Part shown: piece by piece, positions 1-12,811 of the stretch
Layout: each line of letters starts with the position of its first letter
How positions within the stretch are numbered: the first letter of the stretch is position 1
Assembly (NCBI GenBank): GCA_020720185.1
Contig: DYPB01000042.1
Location: 1 to 17,386 of the forward strand
DNA from: Flavobacterium psychrophilum
GTDB taxonomy: Bacteria > Bacteroidota > Bacteroidia > Flavobacteriales > Flavobacteriaceae
Direction of reading: 5' to 3'
Length of the DNA: 17,386 nt
Translations under genes and position numbers: made by a program
Notes under the pieces: generated by a model
What the model saw: the letters and a program-made list of their open reading frames with translations, nothing else
Told to the model about the DNA's origin: nothing
The model's database searches: none

Positions 1-1117
<1,117 letters not shown>

Positions 1118-1244
1118 GTTTTCGGGCTTGGCGAAGGTGGCGATTTTCACCACAAATGTTGATGCGGAGAACCAAACTTTGATTAACCACAAATGTGTCT
1201 GCGGAGCACTGAACCTCCACTTTTGCCAAACCCGTGTTAGCGGT
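1118..1244 (-). repeat. attC-like imperfect palindrome at the 3' end of the DUF262 gene
   Basis: An 18-bp arm CGGGCTTGGCGAAGGTGG (1123-1140) matches the reverse complement of 1217-1234 at 15 of 18 positions. The 76-bp loop holds two 37-bp-spaced copies of a partly conserved unit. The element abuts the DUF262 stop codon, which lies inside GTTAGCGGT (1236-1244). On the cassette strand the order is ACCGCTAAC, palindrome, CCCGAAAAC. This copies the order R'' box, paired stem, R' box of integron attC sites, with R' supplied by the other end of the unit when circular. The size, about 127 bp, is within the range of attC sites. The inverted repeat is seen directly; the recombination role is inference. 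Confidence 0.55.
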
Positions 1245-3084
1245 TCGGTGTTTCTCCTTTGTTAAATATAAATTTCACAATTCGTTCTGTTGCTTTTATT
1301 GTTGCTGTGTCAATATCGTCTTTTGTCCAAGTGTCTTTGGGATATGCTGTCAAAGCCAAAGCAATGGCATATTTGCTGTCTTTGAAGCCAGATTTGTTAT
1401 CAATTGAATTTTGCTTTTTTGTCTTGAACCATTCTCGCCCAATTGACTTATTTATGTCTTCTTCAAGCAATATTTTGTTCCCAAGTTTGTTTACAACACT
1501 ATTAAACTCTTCTTTTGTTGTAATATTTGCATCTTGTTGTATTGTCGTTATGTTACGACCACTTGAAGGCATTATATGTTCAATGTTTACATTCTCTGCG
1601 AAGTAAAACTTAGTTTCTTTGTTTTTAGAGTAAAGGTATTCGTTAATAAAAACAAGTAGATTTTTATCGTATTCAATAATTGCATCCGAAATAGTTTCTT
1701 CTTTCCAATTGTTCTTGATGTGTTCATTGAAATTATTTTTGATAATGTCAATTGAAACATTTTTGTCAACTAATTTAATGTTCTCACCAAACAGAAATGT
1801 CTTGAATTTAGAACTTGAATAGCCAGCATCACTCAATTCTAATATGGTAAATAACCTTAGTAAACATTCACATAAGTCCAAAATATTTTCTTCTGTGATT
1901 TCCGTTATTTCGTAACGATGTAAGTAAGCCGACAAAAACAACTTAGCATTCTCGTTACATTTCAAAAGCAATTTTACAGTCGGATAATCTTTGATGTTAT
2001 TCCAAATGGTTGTTATTTTAGTTAAGTCATTACACAACAATAATGGTTCATTCAACAATTCTTTTTTAATGTCAGTATAATATCTTCTTAAACCTGGTGT
2101 TGTTACATCAACTGATTCATTTCCTTCTTTGTTAGTGCTTATATATTCTTTGTTGATGGCACGATTTATATACATAAATTGTTGTAAAACAGCATCAATG
2201 TCTATGATTTTTCGGTTACTTAGTTCATTCGCTAATTTGTTGATGGTTTCCCATTGGTCGTTAAATGTTTTTTTGTCATCACCAGCATTTGAGTATAGTT
2301 GTGCAGAAATTATATCGGCATCTGAAAGTGGCATACCAGTAGAGTTTAGCGAATTAAACATTGTAATCGCTTGCTCAATTTGCCAACTACGAATTTCAAT
2401 GACTTGGCATTTCTCCAAAAATATTTTTGCAAATTGATTTAGTTGGGATTCTGGCTTTTCGCCTAACTTGTTAAAAAAGTATTTGAAGTTGCGAAAGTGA
2501 TTTGTGTATTTATTGTCTTTTTGTTTTCTTGGAATTTTATGGACGTTCTGTTCAGATGTAATAAAATCTGCTGCTTCTATAATTGTTTTTACTTCTTTGG
2601 GAAATAATTCATTTATCGATTTGTTTTCTATTATTAAGATGTTTTGCGTTTTTGCATAATCTTTTAGCATTGAAGGAATGTCTTCATCTTCTGCTTTATA
2701 CAAAATCGCCATAATTTTATTTCTGTTGGCTTTAAGTCCTGCTTTAAGTGCTTCTGATTCTTCATCGTCAGAAACTTTTGGAATAGCTTCATTTAATTGC
2801 ATTAACAATGCTTTAAGCAATAACAAAAAAGTCGTTGTGCGTTGTTGTCCGTCAATTAAACTGAATTTATGAGTTTCTGAACAATCTACGATGATTGTCC
2901 CGAAAAAATAAGGGTCGCTTGCGTTAGATACAATAAACGAATCAATGTCTTGCCATAATTTATCACATTGAGTTATGTCCCAAGAGTAACCACGCTGATA
3001 TTCAGGAATTACAAAATTTTCGGATTTGTCGAGTTTAAGGAATTTGCTAATTAATTTCAGCGTTGGTTCAATATTTTTTGCCAT
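1237..3084 (-). CDS. DUF262 and DUF1524 (GmrSD-like) protein, probable defence nuclease
   Basis: The protein has 615 residues. The N-terminal DUF262 part shows IPEYQRGYSW (26-35), FFGTIIV (60-66) and the signature DGQQR (78-82) in LIDGQQRTTTFLLL, which belongs to a ParB/sulfiredoxin-like nucleotide-binding fold. The C-terminal DUF1524 part shows NIEHIMPSS (His503) and KLGNKILLE (Asn536), the HNH-type nuclease motif. Known relatives with both domains are GmrSD-type restriction enzymes, which use nucleotides and cut modified phage DNA; here both halves are in one chain, as in many members. Target specificity cannot be read from sequence. The start ATG 3084-3082 follows an A-rich leader, and the TAA stop lies inside the terminal repeat of the cassette. 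No methylase or partner gene is nearby, as expected if it acts on modified DNA alone. Confidence 0.88.
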   Translation of the reverse strand: MAKNIEPTLKLISKFLKLDKSENFVIPEYQRGYSWDITQCDKLWQDIDSFIVSNASDPYFFGTIIVDCSETHKFSLIDGQQRTTTFLLLLKALLMQLNEAIPKVSDDEESEALKAGLKANRNKIMAILYKAEDEDIPSMLKDYAKTQNILIIENKSINELFPKEVKTIIEAADFITSEQNVHKIPRKQKDNKYTNHFRNFKYFFNKLGEKPESQLNQFAKIFLEKCQVIEIRSWQIEQAITMFNSLNSTGMPLSDADIISAQLYSNAGDDKKTFNDQWETINKLANELSNRKIIDIDAVLQQFMYINRAINKEYISTNKEGNESVDVTTPGLRRYYTDIKKELLNEPLLLCNDLTKITTIWNNIKDYPTVKLLLKCNENAKLFLSAYLHRYEITEITEENILDLCECLLRLFTILELSDAGYSSSKFKTFLFGENIKLVDKNVSIDIIKNNFNEHIKNNWKEETISDAIIEYDKNLLVFINEYLYSKNKETKFYFAENVNIEHIMPSSGRNITTIQQDANITTKEEFNSVVNKLGNKILLEEDINKSIGREWFKTKKQNSIDNKSGFKDSKYAIALALTAYPKDTWTKDDIDTATIKATERIVKFIFNKGETPNR

Positions 3085-3177
3085 TTTATTTTTGTCTTTT
3101 ATTTTATGTTGTCTTGTCGTTCGTTATTTTGAGTTTTTCTAATTCGGTGCTGGTCGTCCTACACTGACCGCTAACTT
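3085..3177 (-). other. Cassette 5' leader with terminal repeat GTTAGCGGT
   Basis: Reading along the minus strand, the pfkA stop TAA is followed by AA and then GTTAGCGGTCAGTGTAGGAC at the cassette end. The remainder before the DUF262 ATG is purine-rich, with ACGACAAGACAACATAAAAT. No TAnnTTTG box is seen, so the gene may depend on transcription coming from pfkA, as promoterless integron cassettes do. This dependence is inference. Confidence 0.45.
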
Positions 3178-4164
3178 TTAGGTTGACATTATATCCGAAA
3201 CTCTTAAAAGTTCTTTATCAATAGGATAGTGTCCTTTTATGGCTTGTTCTAATGGTGTTAGTTCTATTTTATCTTGCATTACTCCCACCATATAATTCGA
3301 TTTTCCTTCTAATAAGGATTCTACGGCTTTTACGCCTAATCTACTGGCTAAAACTCGGTCATAACATGAGGGTGGACCGCCTCTTTGCATGTGTCCTAAA
3401 ACCGAAACTCTAACATCGTATTCTGGTAAATGTTCCTCTACATAATCTTTTAATTCAAAAACATTTTTGCCCATTTTATCGCCTTCGGCAACTACTACAA
3501 TACTTGATGATTTACCTGATTCTTTAGATTTTTTTAAGGATTCTAATAATCGGTCTAAACCTAAATCTTCTTCGGGTATTAAAATTTCTTCAGCACCTGC
3601 CCCAATTCCTGCATTTAATGCAATATGACCTGCATCTCTACCCATTACTTCCACAAAAAACAGTCGGTTGTGGGAGCTGGCAGTATCTCTGATTTTGTCA
3701 ATACAATCAACCACTGTGTTCAAAGCTGTATCGTATCCCAAGGTGTGGCTCGTGCCAAAAATGTCGTTGTCAATCGTACCAGGAATTCCCATTACTGGAA
3801 AGCCGAATTCTTTATTAAAAATTTCTGCACCCGTAAAAGTGCCATCTCCACCAATAAGAACTATTCCATCAATATTGTTTTTTTGTAAATTTCCATAAGC
3901 TTTTTGGCGTCCTTCAACAGTCATGAAATCTTTTGAACGAGCTGATTTTAGAATTGTACCGCCTTTATTTACAATATTATTTACGGATCGAGGTCCCATT
4001 TCTTTAAAATCGCCTTCTATCATTCCTTGATAACCTCGATAAATGCCAACGCATTCGATATTATGAAAGGCACAAGTTCGAACCACGGCTCGAATTGCAG
4101 CATTCATTCCTGGTGAATCTCCGCCAGAAGTTAAAACTCCTATTTTTTTAATTTTCTCTGACAT
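3178..4164 (-). CDS. pfkA: ATP-dependent 6-phosphofructokinase
   Basis: The enzyme phosphorylates fructose-6-phosphate to fructose-1,6-bisphosphate, the committed step of glycolysis. Its 328 residues match the short bacterial PfkA form. GVLTSGGDSPGMNAAIR (about 9-25) is the ATP site. GGDGTF (105-110) with Gly108 and PGTIDND (128-134) with Gly129 carry glycines at the two positions where pyrophosphate-dependent enzymes carry Asp and Lys, so ATP is the likely donor. Asp132 is the catalytic base, and MGRDAGHIA forms part of the sugar phosphate site. The start ATG 4164-4162 follows an A-rich leader. Downstream on the same strand is gap, but the DUF262 unit lies between them. The family call is firm. 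Confidence 0.97.
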   Translation of the reverse strand: MSEKIKKIGVLTSGGDSPGMNAAIRAVVRTCAFHNIECVGIYRGYQGMIEGDFKEMGPRSVNNIVNKGGTILKSARSKDFMTVEGRQKAYGNLQKNNIDGIVLIGGDGTFTGAEIFNKEFGFPVMGIPGTIDNDIFGTSHTLGYDTALNTVVDCIDKIRDTASSHNRLFFVEVMGRDAGHIALNAGIGAGAEEILIPEEDLGLDRLLESLKKSKESGKSSSIVVVAEGDKMGKNVFELKDYVEEHLPEYDVRVSVLGHMQRGGPPSCYDRVLASRLGVKAVESLLEGKSNYMVGVMQDKIELTPLEQAIKGHYPIDKELLRVSDIMST

Positions 4165-9400: not shown

Positions 9401-10831
9401 TAAATTTGGATCGTTTACACTAAATTCGCCTCTGAAAATTGGTTTTTGAAAATTTCCATTCAAAGCAACATTTGTATAATTATAACCGTTATAAAAAATA
9501 TTTGAAACATTACCTTTAAATCCTGTTTTTAAATATTTTTGTGTAAAACCCTTACCATCAATATCAAGATCCATACTAACCCTACCAAGATCGCCTCGAT
9601 TAAGAAATTTTCCAACATTAAAGTTGTCCAAAACTAAATTCCCATTATAACTTGCATTATCAATTGCATCAATATTTGTCATTTTCAAATCCGACTGAAT
9701 ATTTCCCAGATCAGTTGTCATAAAAACATCTGCAAGTATTGATTTTGTTGTGATTTCTGTTTTTCCCTTAACCTTAAATTCTCCTAGTTTTTTTAGAGAA
9801 CTTGGTAGATTTTTACCTAAAATATTTGGCAATAACTCAACTAAATGATTATAGTTAGATGCTATTTTGATAAAATCTCCTTTCATATAAAAATCTTCTC
9901 CTTTTTTTTCAAAAAGATTTTTAAAGTTCACATTACCAATTATTTGTGTTTTATCATTGTCTTTCAAATTAAGATTTTTACAATATAAATTATTTAAAGT
10001 TCCTTTAACTTTTGATTGAATATTAAATTGTTTCTCTTTGCCTAACTCTTTATAAAAGTAACGAATATCGTTGGTTGAAATTGAAGCGGTATCAATTTCA
10101 ATATCAAATTTAACCTTGTTATTAAAATCCGAAAAATCACCTTTATCTCTGTCGTAATTCATTATAATTTTGCCTTTATAAATTGATTCTTTGGTTGATA
10201 AATCAAGTTCGTTTAAAGCAATAGATTTTTTTGTATAAGCAAATTTTGACGATAAATTTTCAACAAAAATACCACGATGGTCTAAAAACGACATTTTTTT
10301 GATGTCAATATCAACATCTGGACCAAGAATTTGAAAGTTTTCAAATGTTGAATTTAACTTTTTTATATCTAAATCCTTTGCAATTTCTCTATTTTCATCG
10401 GTTAGAATAAATCGTGAATTTGTAATAAAAACCCGCTTTGCTTTCATTAAAAAGGGTTTAGTTGATTTTGCTCCATCGTCAAAGGCATCAATAAATTTGT
10501 CTAAATTTGTATCCTTTTCACCTTTATAATTTTTCATATTAAAAACCATCCCATCTAATCTTAAATCGCCAAAAAGCAAATCACCATCAGCAAGTTTTTT
10601 AGCATCTAAAATATTGGTATTTATACGATTAACAAAAATCAAAGTGTCGTTTTTATAATCTTTTATAAAAACCTCTTTTAATTTTACACCGCCAAAAATA
10701 CTAACAGTTGCTTGCTCAATATTGATATTAGTTCTATATTGTTCATTAATCTGATTGGTAAAATGTTGAGCAATTTTAGTTTGAACAGCGGGCAATGAAA
10801 GTATAATTCCTGACAAAAGCAAAAGTAGCAC
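6419..10831 (-). CDS. tamB: TamB-like translocation/assembly protein (DUF490)
   Basis: This very long envelope protein (at least 1470 residues) is predicted to be anchored in the inner membrane and to span the periplasm as a beta-groove that carries lipids or assists outer-membrane assembly. A hydrophobic segment LLLLLSGIILSLPAV opens it, followed by repetitive beta-strand-rich AsmA-like sequence. The C-terminal TamB domain is seen around residues 1130-1460, for example FEMYGDFYILTGKYNFKYGG, SIVWNGDPLKAELNIEAVYN and GIGYTQGLGVSYEVDFD. The tail is lysine-rich. The annotated start is GTG 10831-10829, but it cuts off the basic part of the signal anchor; the frame continues upstream as IKKIKKILTRTVLALV to a stop at 10913-10915 without ATG, GTG or TTG. 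The true start is probably a rare codon near 10867-10876. tsaD is divergent and dbpA follows downstream. Confidence 0.92.
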   Translation of the reverse strand: MLLLLLSGIILSLPAVQTKIAQHFTNQINEQYRTNINIEQATVSIFGGVKLKEVFIKDYKNDTLIFVNRINTNILDAKKLADGDLLFGDLRLDGMVFNMKNYKGEKDTNLDKFIDAFDDGAKSTKPFLMKAKRVFITNSRFILTDENREIAKDLDIKKLNSTFENFQILGPDVDIDIKKMSFLDHRGIFVENLSSKFAYTKKSIALNELDLSTKESIYKGKIIMNYDRDKGDFSDFNNKVKFDIEIDTASISTNDIRYFYKELGKEKQFNIQSKVKGTLNNLYCKNLNLKDNDKTQIIGNVNFKNLFEKKGEDFYMKGDFIKIASNYNHLVELLPNILGKNLPSSLKKLGEFKVKGKTEITTKSILADVFMTTDLGNIQSDLKMTNIDAIDNASYNGNLVLDNFNVGKFLNRGDLGRVSMDLDIDGKGFTQKYLKTGFKGNVSNIFYNGYNYTNVALNGNFQKPIFRGEFSVNDPNLLMEFKGIVDLSKEKKHYDFDTKISFANLKKLNFIKDSISNFKGNLKMNVAGNSIDNLIGNIKFADIFYQNKKNTYTFIDFEINSVFDKNNIRTIKVNSPDIIEGQIVGKFKFALLQKMLENSIGSLYTNYKPNKIQKGQFLKFDFNIYNKIIEIFYPGIEIGKNTKIHGTMSSDDNDFKFNFSTPQIVAFNNYFDNIKVKIDNRNPLYNAYIELDSIRTKQYKVSDFSLINVTKNDTLLFRTEFKGGKKATDYYNLNLYHTINADNKNVVGVKKSEVKFKDNLWFLNEQSTTDNKIVFDKNLSNFLIENIVLSHDNQKINLLGNLQGKKNKNLKLNFENVDLKQITPSLDKFIFDGLLNGEVAINQKNNIYQPISNLKIENLKINNNLLGNLKLDIKGDDVLKNFEINSSIQNKNVKAFNAIGNLIIDDNKTTLDLNLDFEKFNLGILSTIGGSTISNIQGFASGKARINGDVEKFDMNGRLFIDDAGLKIPYINTEYKFDNQTIVDVTRDKFIFNNIVLKDTKYETKGKLTGNISHKNFGDWALDLNIDSNNIVALDTQDSEDAAYYGKAFINGKAQIFGSVDALTINVNASSNKGTDIKIPVNDSESLGNNNYIHFVTSKEKENIKKGTVETENYAGLSLNFDLDINRNAYIEVILNRDSKHGMKGNGLGTLQLAINTLGKFEMYGDFYILTGKYNFKYGGLIDKSFDVKKGGSIVWNGDPLKAELNIEAVYNKISANPGVLLDNPSFSKQVPTVVTIGITGNLSRPESDFNIDFPTVNSVLKSEIQTKLEDKQIRQKQAMVLLGSGSFLSQEGLNQTALVYNNLFEKAGHLFDDLFQDEDSKIKLGVAYNQAEKTTTGTKVNSRFDVNISTQVNDRITINGKVGVPVGGVNESAIVGNLEIQYRVNEDGTMYLKVYNRENEINYIGEGIGYTQGLGVSYEVDFDTFSELVNKIFKKKIEKNPENKKPTNEPKQDTKLNAIMPVDDKKKKG

Positions 10832-10960
10832 AAGTGCTAAAACAGTTCGGGTGAGTATTTTTTTAATTTTTTTGATGGTTATTTCTAAATAGGAATTATT
10901 AAAATAAAAAACTTACTTTTGGCTTCGTTGTAAAAAATAAATATTATTACAATTAAGTGT

Positions 10961-10990
10961 CAAATATAATTCAAAAAATATAGTTTTCAA
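10961..10990 (-). promoter_or_regulatory. tamB promoter, TTG-N19-TATATTTG
   Basis: On the minus strand TTG (complement of 10988-10990) is followed after 19 bases by TATATTTG (complement of 10961-10968). Both elements and their spacing match the Bacteroidota housekeeping promoter. The -33 element overlaps the first base of the tsaD start codon on the other strand, so the two divergent genes share their control region. The tamB leader would be about 80-90 bases. Confidence 0.55.
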
Positions 10991-12006
10991 TGCAAAACAA
11001 TCCAGTTTTTATTTTATCTATTGAATCATCTTGCGATGATACTGCTGCTGCGGTTTTACAAAACGATAGGGTTTTGAGTAATGTGGTGGCTAATCAGTTG
11101 ATTCACAGTCAATATGGGGGTGTGGTTCCAGAATTAGCTTCAAGGGCACATCAGCAAAATATTGTTCCAGTAGTAGATATTGCCTTGAAAAAAGCAGGTG
11201 TGAAAAAAGAACAACTCTCGGCCATAGCTTTTACGCAAGGACCAGGTTTGATGGGAAGTTTATTAGTTGGCAGTTCGTTTGCAAAATCAATGGCAATGGC
11301 ATTAAATATTCCGCTAATTGCTGTTAATCATATGGATGCACATATTTTAGCACATTTTATTGATGAAGAAGGTTATGAAAAACCAAGTTTTCCGTTTTTA
11401 GCCTTAACTATTTCTGGAGGACATACACAAATTGTAAAGGTTGATGGTTTTTTTGATATGAAAATCATTGGAGAAACGACTGATGACGCTGTAGGCGAAG
11501 CATTTGATAAGAGTGCAAAAATATTAGGATTGCCATATCCAGGTGGTCCATTAGTTGATAAGTATGCACAATTAGGAAATCCAGAAGCCTATCAATTTAC
11601 AAAACCAAAAATGCCAAATTTAGATTTTAGTTTTTCAGGCTTAAAAACAGCTATTTTATATTTTATCCAAAAAGAAAAATTAAAAAACCCTGATTTTATT
11701 TCAGAAAATTTGAACGATATTTGTGCCTCAATTCAGCATACAATTATACAAATTTTAATGGATAAATTGAAATTAGCAGTAAAAGAAACAGGGATAAAAC
11801 AGGTAGCTATTGGTGGAGGTGTTTCTGCAAATTCAGGCATCAGAAACACATTAAAAGAAGCAGAAAAATTGTATGGTTGGAAAACCTATATTCCAAAATT
11901 TGAATATACAACGGATAATGCTGCAATGATAGGGATAGTAGGATATCAAAAATACTTAACAAACTGCTTCGAAAACAATGAAGTAGTATCTAAAGCGAGA
12001 TTTTAA
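10990..12006 (+). CDS. tsaD: tRNA N6-adenosine threonylcarbamoyltransferase TsaD
   Basis: TsaD moves the threonylcarbamoyl group from threonylcarbamoyl-AMP to A37 of tRNAs that read ANN codons, working with TsaB and TsaE in bacteria. The 338 residues are full length. SIESSCDDTA (10-19) is the first phosphate loop of the ASKHA fold. VPELASRAH (46-54) is a family signature. His114 and His118 in HMDAH, with Asp309 in YTTDNAAMIG, bind the metal. YPGGP and IGGGVSANSGIR are further conserved segments. The ATG at 10990 is the first in frame and starts MQNNPVFILSIESS, in line with other members. The gene diverges from tamB and is followed on the same strand by rsmE after 97 bases. No partner tsaB or tsaE is in the window. 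Confidence 0.97.
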   Translation: MQNNPVFILSIESSCDDTAAAVLQNDRVLSNVVANQLIHSQYGGVVPELASRAHQQNIVPVVDIALKKAGVKKEQLSAIAFTQGPGLMGSLLVGSSFAKSMAMALNIPLIAVNHMDAHILAHFIDEEGYEKPSFPFLALTISGGHTQIVKVDGFFDMKIIGETTDDAVGEAFDKSAKILGLPYPGGPLVDKYAQLGNPEAYQFTKPKMPNLDFSFSGLKTAILYFIQKEKLKNPDFISENLNDICASIQHTIIQILMDKLKLAVKETGIKQVAIGGGVSANSGIRNTLKEAEKLYGWKTYIPKFEYTTDNAAMIGIVGYQKYLTNCFENNEVVSKARF

Positions 12007-12103
12007 TTTTGTAGTAAGTAAAAAGGTGTAAGCCAAAAAAGTGCTTTTTGAATTATGACTTACAACTTATCACTTAGAATTTATAACTAATAATAACTAA
12101 TTT

Positions 12104-12811
12104 ATGCAATTATTCTATAATCCAAATATAAATTTAGATACAAAAAACTTCTTTTTTGACAAAGAAGAAAGTAAACACATTATTAAAGTTTTGCGTAAGA
12201 AAGATACCGATATACTTTATGTTACCAATGGTTTAGGTTTTTTATTCATAACAAAAATAACATTAGCTTCGGATTCGAAGTGTACTGTTGAAATTGTTGA
12301 AGTTATAAAAAATGATGTACCAAAAAATCATTTACATATTGCTATTGCACCCACAAAAATGAATGATAGGTTTGAATGGTTTTTAGAAAAAGCAACCGAA
12401 ATAGGCATACAAGAAATTAGCCCAATTATTTGTGAACATTCTGAAAGAAAACAACTAAAAACAGATCGATTTGAGAAAATAATACAATCTGCAATGAAAC
12501 AATCGAACCAGCTATTTTTACCGAAACTGAATGAATCAATATTATTTAAAGAATTTATTAGTCAAGATTTAGAAGGTCAAAAACTTATTGCACACTGTGA
12601 AGATAATGAGAAAAAAATGTTAAAGAATATTTTAGAAATCAATCAAAAGATAATCATTTTAATTGGTCCAGAGGGTGATTTTTCTAGTAAAGAAATTGAA
12701 AATGCTATGAAAAACAATTACATACCAATTTCGTTAGGGAATACTCGTTTAAGAACCGAAACTGCAGGAATTGTAGCTTGTAATTTGGTCAATTTTTTGA
12801 ATGAAATCTAA
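12104..12811 (+). CDS. rsmE: 16S rRNA m3U1498 methyltransferase RsmE
   Basis: RsmE methylates N3 of U1498 in 16S rRNA of the 30S subunit with S-adenosylmethionine. Its 235 residues comprise an N-terminal PUA-like RNA-binding part (MQLFYNPNI, then SKHIIKVLRKK) and a C-terminal SPOUT domain with a trefoil knot. Seen motifs are KMNDRFEWFLEKATEIGI, IGPEGDFSSKEIE (GPEGDF at 188-193) and LGNTRLRTETAGIVA (LGNTRLRTETA at 211-221), the cofactor loop. It follows tsaD by 97 bases; this spacer has only a weak stem (CAAAAA at 12034-12039 with TTTTTG at 12045-12050), so read-through is possible. Its stop is 2 bases from the stop of the convergent acyl-CoA reductase gene. Confidence 0.96.
   Translation: MQLFYNPNINLDTKNFFFDKEESKHIIKVLRKKDTDILYVTNGLGFLFITKITLASDSKCTVEIVEVIKNDVPKNHLHIAIAPTKMNDRFEWFLEKATEIGIQEISPIICEHSERKQLKTDRFEKIIQSAMKQSNQLFLPKLNESILFKEFISQDLEGQKLIAHCEDNEKKMLKNILEINQKIIILIGPEGDFSSKEIENAMKNNYIPISLGNTRLRTETAGIVACNLVNFLNEI

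Follow-up and report, generated by a model that had tools for sequence, protein, structure and literature searches.

What is the unit that stands between pfkA and gap in the window (by which we mean the whole stretch of DNA analysed here, 17,386 nucleotides), and how could it have come to be there? All of its parts are read on the minus strand. The gene preceding the insertion, pfkA (3178..4164), ends in a TAA at 3178-3180; after this stop come two bases, AA when read along the gene, and then an R'-like box, GTTAGCGGT (3167..3175), which provides the opening bases of the unit. A leader of 82 nt (3085..3166) runs from this box to a gene of 615 aa (1237..3084) that belongs to the GmrSD (DUF262/DUF1524) restriction endonuclease family according to Pfam (PF03235 and PF07510) and is called HEC-06, Orf5, by PADLOC. 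The TAA stop of this cargo gene is placed inside an R''-like box, ACCGCTAAC (1236..1244), the perfect reverse complement of the R' box, and it is followed by an imperfect palindrome whose 5' arm (1217..1234) and 3' arm (1123..1140) are assigned by folding and by covariation within the family described below. The palindrome ends in AAAAC, and the whole attC-like site covers 1118..1244; the G at the right junction (1117) is probably the final base of the cassette, and beyond it the flank resumes, with gap (3..998, partial in the window) behind the insertion. The first-pass annotation had reported the 9-bp inverted repeat, the arms of the palindrome, the stop codon within the repeat and the distance of two bases from pfkA, all of which proved exact, and had proposed an integron-like single-gene cassette. 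Our own answer, to which we would give a probability of about 0.85, is that the unit is one cassette of an integron-like system widespread in Bacteroidota, captured at a secondary G^T site.

Taken alone, the repeat and the fold of the window are at chance level, and the case therefore rests on comparison. In random sequence of the window's size, simple arithmetic predicts some 130 perfect inverted pairs of 9 bp at distances below 2 kb, and the fold of the palindrome does not stand out from its shuffles (z -0.83, with 42 of 200 shuffles equally good). This is in favour of a trivial explanation, namely that of a scattered palindromic element (REP-like, MITE or terminator) next to which the gene would stand by chance, as is the fact that the palindromes lie at gene ends, like terminators. 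A scan of the window against Rfam, nonetheless, returned nothing at gathering score; a weak match on 1000-1400, scoring 14.8 bits where the cut-off is 174.8, was discarded as chance. Among plasmids, blastn with the window site gave 15 records, short and weak, none of them spanning 80% of the query. The loop of the hairpin also contains a 32-nt direct repeat of 78% identity (1146-1177 and 1183-1214), which may have a role in the shape of the site.

Is the gene an old resident of this spacer? A search of species genomes with the window's pfkA protein confirmed 592 relatives, of which the 80 best were compared. In every one of these 80, gap lies next to pfkA across a spacer of 20-168 nt that contains no gene, which means that the spacer is empty in 80 out of 80 and the DUF262 gene is not a common possession of the relatives. 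Since this comparison is made between species, the exact junction is not a strain-to-strain one; the empty site of the window would read TAAAAG^TAATAGG, and the crossover would be placed between the G (3175) and TT. A G is retained at nine of ten sites with a non-GTT right flank, as counted by eye.

The hairpin itself turned out to be anything but private to this locus. Viral contigs scanned with a loose pattern, CCGCTAACN{90,120}GTTAGCGG, yielded at least 120 stretches, many of them due to chance, and among the matches listed there was a clear family whose arms are variable in sequence yet still complementary. On the complementarity of their arms, judged by eye, 25 viral contigs (28 sites) were considered likely members. 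Four sites were dropped from this set (L038, which is the same site as L062, and L087, L007 and L079, with poor arms), and a first covariance model, R1, was made of the window site and the remaining 24, which come from 21 contigs. The 25 aligned sites showed both-sided changes at all 17 predicted pairs. Some viral-classed contigs, such as L070, L072, L113 and L099, display family boxes and hairpins in alternation, delimiting cassettes of roughly 150-1000 bp. R1 detected the hairpin in the eight genomes selected among the pfkA relatives (8/8) and, with an E-value of 0.001, in 199 of 299 Flavobacteriaceae genomes, and with a wider model, R2, made of 66 sites, the count is 136 out of 296 Bacteroidota genomes (E 0.0001); the repeats are, hence, widespread rather than restricted to this locus. 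The background is low, as R2 gave two matches up to E 1 on 77 pfkA loci (969 kb). In one of these loci, which belongs to a Flavobacterium MAG, a lone R2 match (L138 12063-12181, E 4.8e-4) lies some 5 kb away from pfkA. The window site scores 97.9 bits with R1 and 68.2 bits with R2, being a training row of both, and independently of the models blastn found hairpins like that of the window, with 96.8-99.2% identity along 120-124 nt, in L206, L217/L202 and L295, which represent three further genomes and where they stand behind ORFs of 79, 274 and 470 aa and not behind a GmrSD gene.

The pairing of the arms is conserved in spite of their sequence variability. In the 66 sites of R2, 94.8% of the stem cells are paired, versus 60.7% in shuffled sites and 28-43% when the arms are slid, and the stem changes comprise 252 double and no one-sided ones, although two of the five covariation measures were unremarkable (45 of 500 shuffles had as many double-change pairs, and 194 of 500 as many pair types). 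That there is no one-sided G-U change suggests a pairing of DNA rather than of RNA, which also speaks against a terminator or similar element.

The arrangement of the sites is the next piece of evidence. The 94 sites detected by R1 in 21 loci (one of them, L288 4548-4639, being a partial match without boxes) lie on a single strand within each locus, with the proviso that these loci were chosen for their high-scoring sites and the density of arrays in them is thus a selected one. Among 71 neighbouring pairs there are 37 in which the 9-mer that opens the unit, of the form GTTN6, is the exact reverse complement of the nine bases preceding the hairpin that follows. With the preceding hairpin the same holds in 1 of 71, and in 1420 random comparisons the rate is 1.1%; the 34 imperfect cases are explained in part by sites that R1 misses. 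Allowing the partner at any position up to 2.5 kb downstream, it was found for 58 of 80 units (21 of 800 in the control), and 27 of these 58 partners are located where R1 is silent, most of them, albeit not all, at visible hairpins. A caller of closed cassettes built on this 9-mer rule made 131 calls in the 21 loci (none in two of them), of which six were removed as insertion-sequence or coincidental artefacts. The 125 closed cassettes that were kept have a median length of 773 bp (range 365-2554); their longest ORF of at least 60 aa runs along the array direction in 109 and against it in 8, and in 72 of those 109 the ORF stop is no more than 12 nt away from R''. The same caller recovered 63 cassettes in 144.5 kb of sequence from ten recombinase loci and none in 289 kb of shuffles. 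In 20 loci of the phylum sample that took no part in model building, 18 sites could be placed; a partner no more than 1.5 kb away was found for only 8 of them on the upstream side and only 6 on the downstream side, in comparison to 21/859 and 16/859, respectively, in the controls.

This rule refines what had been proposed for the ends of the unit. The first-pass annotation postulated that closing the unit into a circle would flank the palindrome with the complementary boxes CGCTAAC and GTTAGCG; the self-complementarity of the ends is borne out by the arrays, whereas GTTAGCG is not a fixed motif, for the boxes are cassette-specific (79 distinct 9-mers among 125 cassettes) and have only GTT in common. 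Instead of the sequence of the boxes, certain positions next to them are constant: position 11 is an A in 125 of 125 cassettes, facing a C in 103 of them, and positions 12-14 re-pair in 108-117. The window fits the pattern with its R' box, GTTAGCGGT, and its A at position 11, the facing base being G and not C; when its circle is joined in silico, the stem runs on through the R boxes and reaches -26.4 kcal/mol, versus -19.4 in the integrated form (values obtained without a shuffle control). Given that the copies flank genes in arrays instead of being scattered without them, and given the self-complementary ends, the single strand per locus, the recombinase at the array heads and the absence of any Rfam match at gathering score, we find the scattered-element explanation scarcely credible, and return to the cassette one.

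Several cassettes are present in more than one copy. Full-length repeats of cassettes of 555 bp and 884 bp (both at 100% identity) and of 677 bp (96.8%) occur elsewhere in one array, and a 365-bp cassette is present three times (95-98% identity) within one array; in the genome G102, repeats of 1586 and 851 bp stand side by side and may represent a single block duplication. Two cassettes are shared between different genomes at 82%. Together with the empty site in other species, these repeated cassettes are at most an indirect sign of a putative capture and excision by the recombinase. The content of the cassettes is very diverse: Pfam assigned 72 families to 104 proteins (103 cassette ORFs plus the window gene), three of them with two members and the rest with one, and the cargo includes restriction, methylase and AbiEii-like genes as well as many unknown ones. 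Part of it is defence-like. The window gene, the only cargo of its cassette, matches both halves of the GmrSD restriction family above the cut-offs, with 125 bits for one (cut-off 33.2) and 41 for the other (cut-off 23). A search of the genus at E 1e-40, without positive control, gave no homologue of it (0/299 genomes), nor was a GmrSD gene found in the other cassette loci compared by blastn. Several attC-like sites (in L211, L283 and L296) are followed, a few bases past their R'' box, by insertion sequences with ends GTTGCACAAC, which in L211 lie at 10780-12543, 16008-17740 and 18510-19826, and the copies of Flavobacterium piscinae carry a 554-aa transposase; these elements may target attC-like sites.

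What enzyme could move such cassettes? Here the link is drawn from genomes other than the window's own. In F. piscinae, a gene for a tyrosine recombinase of 573 aa (L211 5077-6798) is located directly 5' of an array and parallel to it. Matches to this recombinase at E 1e-40 are present in 207 of 299 Flavobacteriaceae genomes, many of which we take to be general relatives. Among the matches listed (150 recombinases and 150 sites), 27 recombinases share a contig with a site and 15 are within 20 kb of one, and for these 15 the nearest site is downstream on the same strand in 13 and divergent in two (genomes G165 and G049), where real arrays begin behind the 5' end of the recombinase gene. The two divergent recombinases (L362 8352-9173, with an array from 9569, and L363 2096-2881, with a cassette at 79-1664) have the classical integron orientation, and their first cassettes are identical in length and 9-mer. 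A further 20 recombinases were picked by similarity, and not by proximity to any site, from the top 30 matches with loci (of the other ten, five had already been taken, two were at contig ends and three were omitted). In 13 of these 20 there is a same-strand R2 site downstream, the first one within 1.5 kb, and in 7, one of them at a contig end, there is none, for which reason many relatives may do other work. The first closed cassette begins 39-138 nt after the recombinase match in 11 of the 20, and across the 20 loci 75 closed cassettes are on the strand of the recombinase and two on the opposite one; a single call in L354 was not considered an array because R2 saw no site there. Ahead of the first cassette there is often an inverted repeat with a spacer of 5-6 nt followed by G^TT, for instance AAATAAACGCACCGGTGCGTTTATCCATAT immediately before GTT (printed cases, uncounted), and we take this repeat to be an attI-like insertion point at the head of the array. 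A recombinase beside a same-strand array, a putative attI-like point and cassettes with predicted folding sites, i.e., the elements by which integrons are broadly defined, are hence found together in these other genomes. The annotation, seeing no integrase, had to suppose mobilisation in trans or an unknown recombinase, and the family of the latter can now be named: XerA-like tyrosine recombinases, without the IntI insertion, that head such arrays.

One alternative is that the unit is an ordinary IntI-type integron cassette (or CALIN) with an unusual attC, moved by the true IntI of some Bacteroidota. The layout is the same as in integrons and CALINs, with tandem, same-strand and mostly single-gene cassettes whose stop is near R'', a hairpin with the order R'', L'', L', R', an attI-like site beside the recombinase, the G^TT junction and the occurrence of a lone cassette at a secondary site. 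Moreover, true IntI proteins above the cut-off of TIGR02249 (as at loci L321-L335) are present in 57 of 198 Bacteroidota genomes, versus none of 14 named control genomes, which exceeds what the passages on this phylum in the literature suggest. However, no R2 site was found in 53 kb of flanks around 15 true IntI genes, so that the two systems look separate, and R2 sites are present in 24 of the 57 genomes with IntI (counted by eye), a proportion close to the 136 of 296 found overall, hence there is no link between the presence of IntI and that of R2 sites. Furthermore, the R' core GTTRRRY fits only 12 of the 125 R' boxes, and not that of the window. The enzymes also differ. The distance from KGxxDR to HxLRH is 64-65 residues in the 13 array recombinases aligned and 106 in Bacteroidota IntI (12 of 14 measurable), meaning that all 13 array recombinases are devoid of 41-42 residues that IntI has between these two catalytic motifs, a stretch where, we assume, the additional domain I2 lies. 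In line with this, in the alignment with VchIntIA (2A3V) the recombinase advances from 279 to 308 while the target does so from 179 to 251, and the alignment with XerA (5HXY) has no large gap. The profile TIGR02249 does match 13 of 13 array recombinases (best E 1.3e-63), with two scores, 206.7 and 201.8, below the cut-off of 265. In addition to the missing insertion, the system is set apart from integrons by its cassette-specific R boxes, by A.C mismatches at fixed places and by a recombinase that mostly reads towards the array, with the divergent exceptions of the two genomes mentioned. As possible counterparts of the extrahelical bases that set the strand in the IntI type, the attC-like sites show these fixed A.C mismatches and unequal spacers. 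Weighing this, we consider a true IntI as the agent very unlikely, and the integron-like system with a recombinase of its own is still the reading that we prefer.

If not IntI, could these be Xer-type modules, that is, units with dif-like ends on which XerC/XerD-like enzymes act in the double-stranded state? Plasmids have pdif modules of this type, and the spacing of box, 5-6 nt and box resembles that of dif. The recombinase is indeed nearest XerA by sequence and nearest XerA, together with IntI, by fold: its predicted structure (pLDDT 81.9, pTM 0.51) had VchIntIA and XerA as the closest Foldseek results, with TM-scores of 0.40-0.54. NF040815, the profile that NCBI labels "site-specific tyrosine recombinase/integron integrase", matches 13 of 13 array recombinases, with the one of L289 (228.6) above the cut-off of 220 and that of F. 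piscinae (199.3) below it, and most array recombinases have an extra N-terminal stretch and, unlike known XerA-like recombinases, head arrays. In a tree, IntI forms one clade and the flavobacterial XerC/XerD another, separate one, and the array recombinases are distributed over several lineages of the I2-less group, a tree that gives no count of the origins of the array-heading habit, since three of the array rows coincide with rows that carry the label "other" and the latter were checked for arrays only in part. As for the sites, the R boxes have only GTT in common, which is at odds with a conserved dif-like core at both ends, the spacers of the attI-like and attC-like sites differ, and the ends of each cassette are mutually complementary, something that only a folded strand would need. 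We therefore lend this Xer-type explanation marginally less credence than the IntI one. The system is, judging from its sequences, integron-like in its working, yet it fails two of the tests that define the IntI type (the I2 domain and GTTRRRY), and we read it as an integron system probably driven by an I2-less, XerA-like integrase.

On these grounds, a complete system consists of the gene for a XerA-like recombinase that lacks the insertion of IntI, followed closely by an attI-like site and by head-to-tail, mostly single-gene cassettes, each of which opens with its own GTTN6 and closes with the reverse complement of this 9-mer plus the attC-like hairpin. In a circular cassette the two 9-mers would meet across the hairpin and one of the strands would fold, allowing the recombinase to read the folded R and L boxes and to exchange strands between G and TT. 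The GmrSD cassette of the window would have entered by action in trans, at a G^T that happened to lie behind pfkA, and read-through from the pfkA promoter may express it there. The cassette reading of the first-pass annotation is, in this regard, supported by the comparisons above, and was even too modest.

No description of such a system was found among the titles listed from one open-licence library, a scope that excludes most subscription papers and preprints. NCBI already labels these recombinases as integron integrases in the name quoted above. Bacteroidota do appear on published lists of integron-bearing phyla (PMC8618304). A survey of 2008 did not retain integrases that had neither the additional domain nor the IntI patch (PMC2426708), and the IntegronFinder 2.0 paper mentions, for Bacteroidetes proper, In0 at an earlier stage and a single complete integron thereafter (PMC9024848). 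An enzyme without I2 may be why the surveys overlooked the system and under-counted it. I2 is thought to be essential for integrons, and a natural cassette system with an I2-less recombinase would make this claim directly testable. It seems somewhat probable to us that what we see is a second form of integron, perhaps of separate origin, with I2-less, Xer-like recombinases, hairpins read by their shape and their A.C mismatches, boxes that are not bound to one sequence, and a cassette pool, both large and overlooked, that extends across Bacteroidota and includes defence genes. If this is true, there would be a large uncounted stock of mobile cassettes in a phylum that is common in water and soil.
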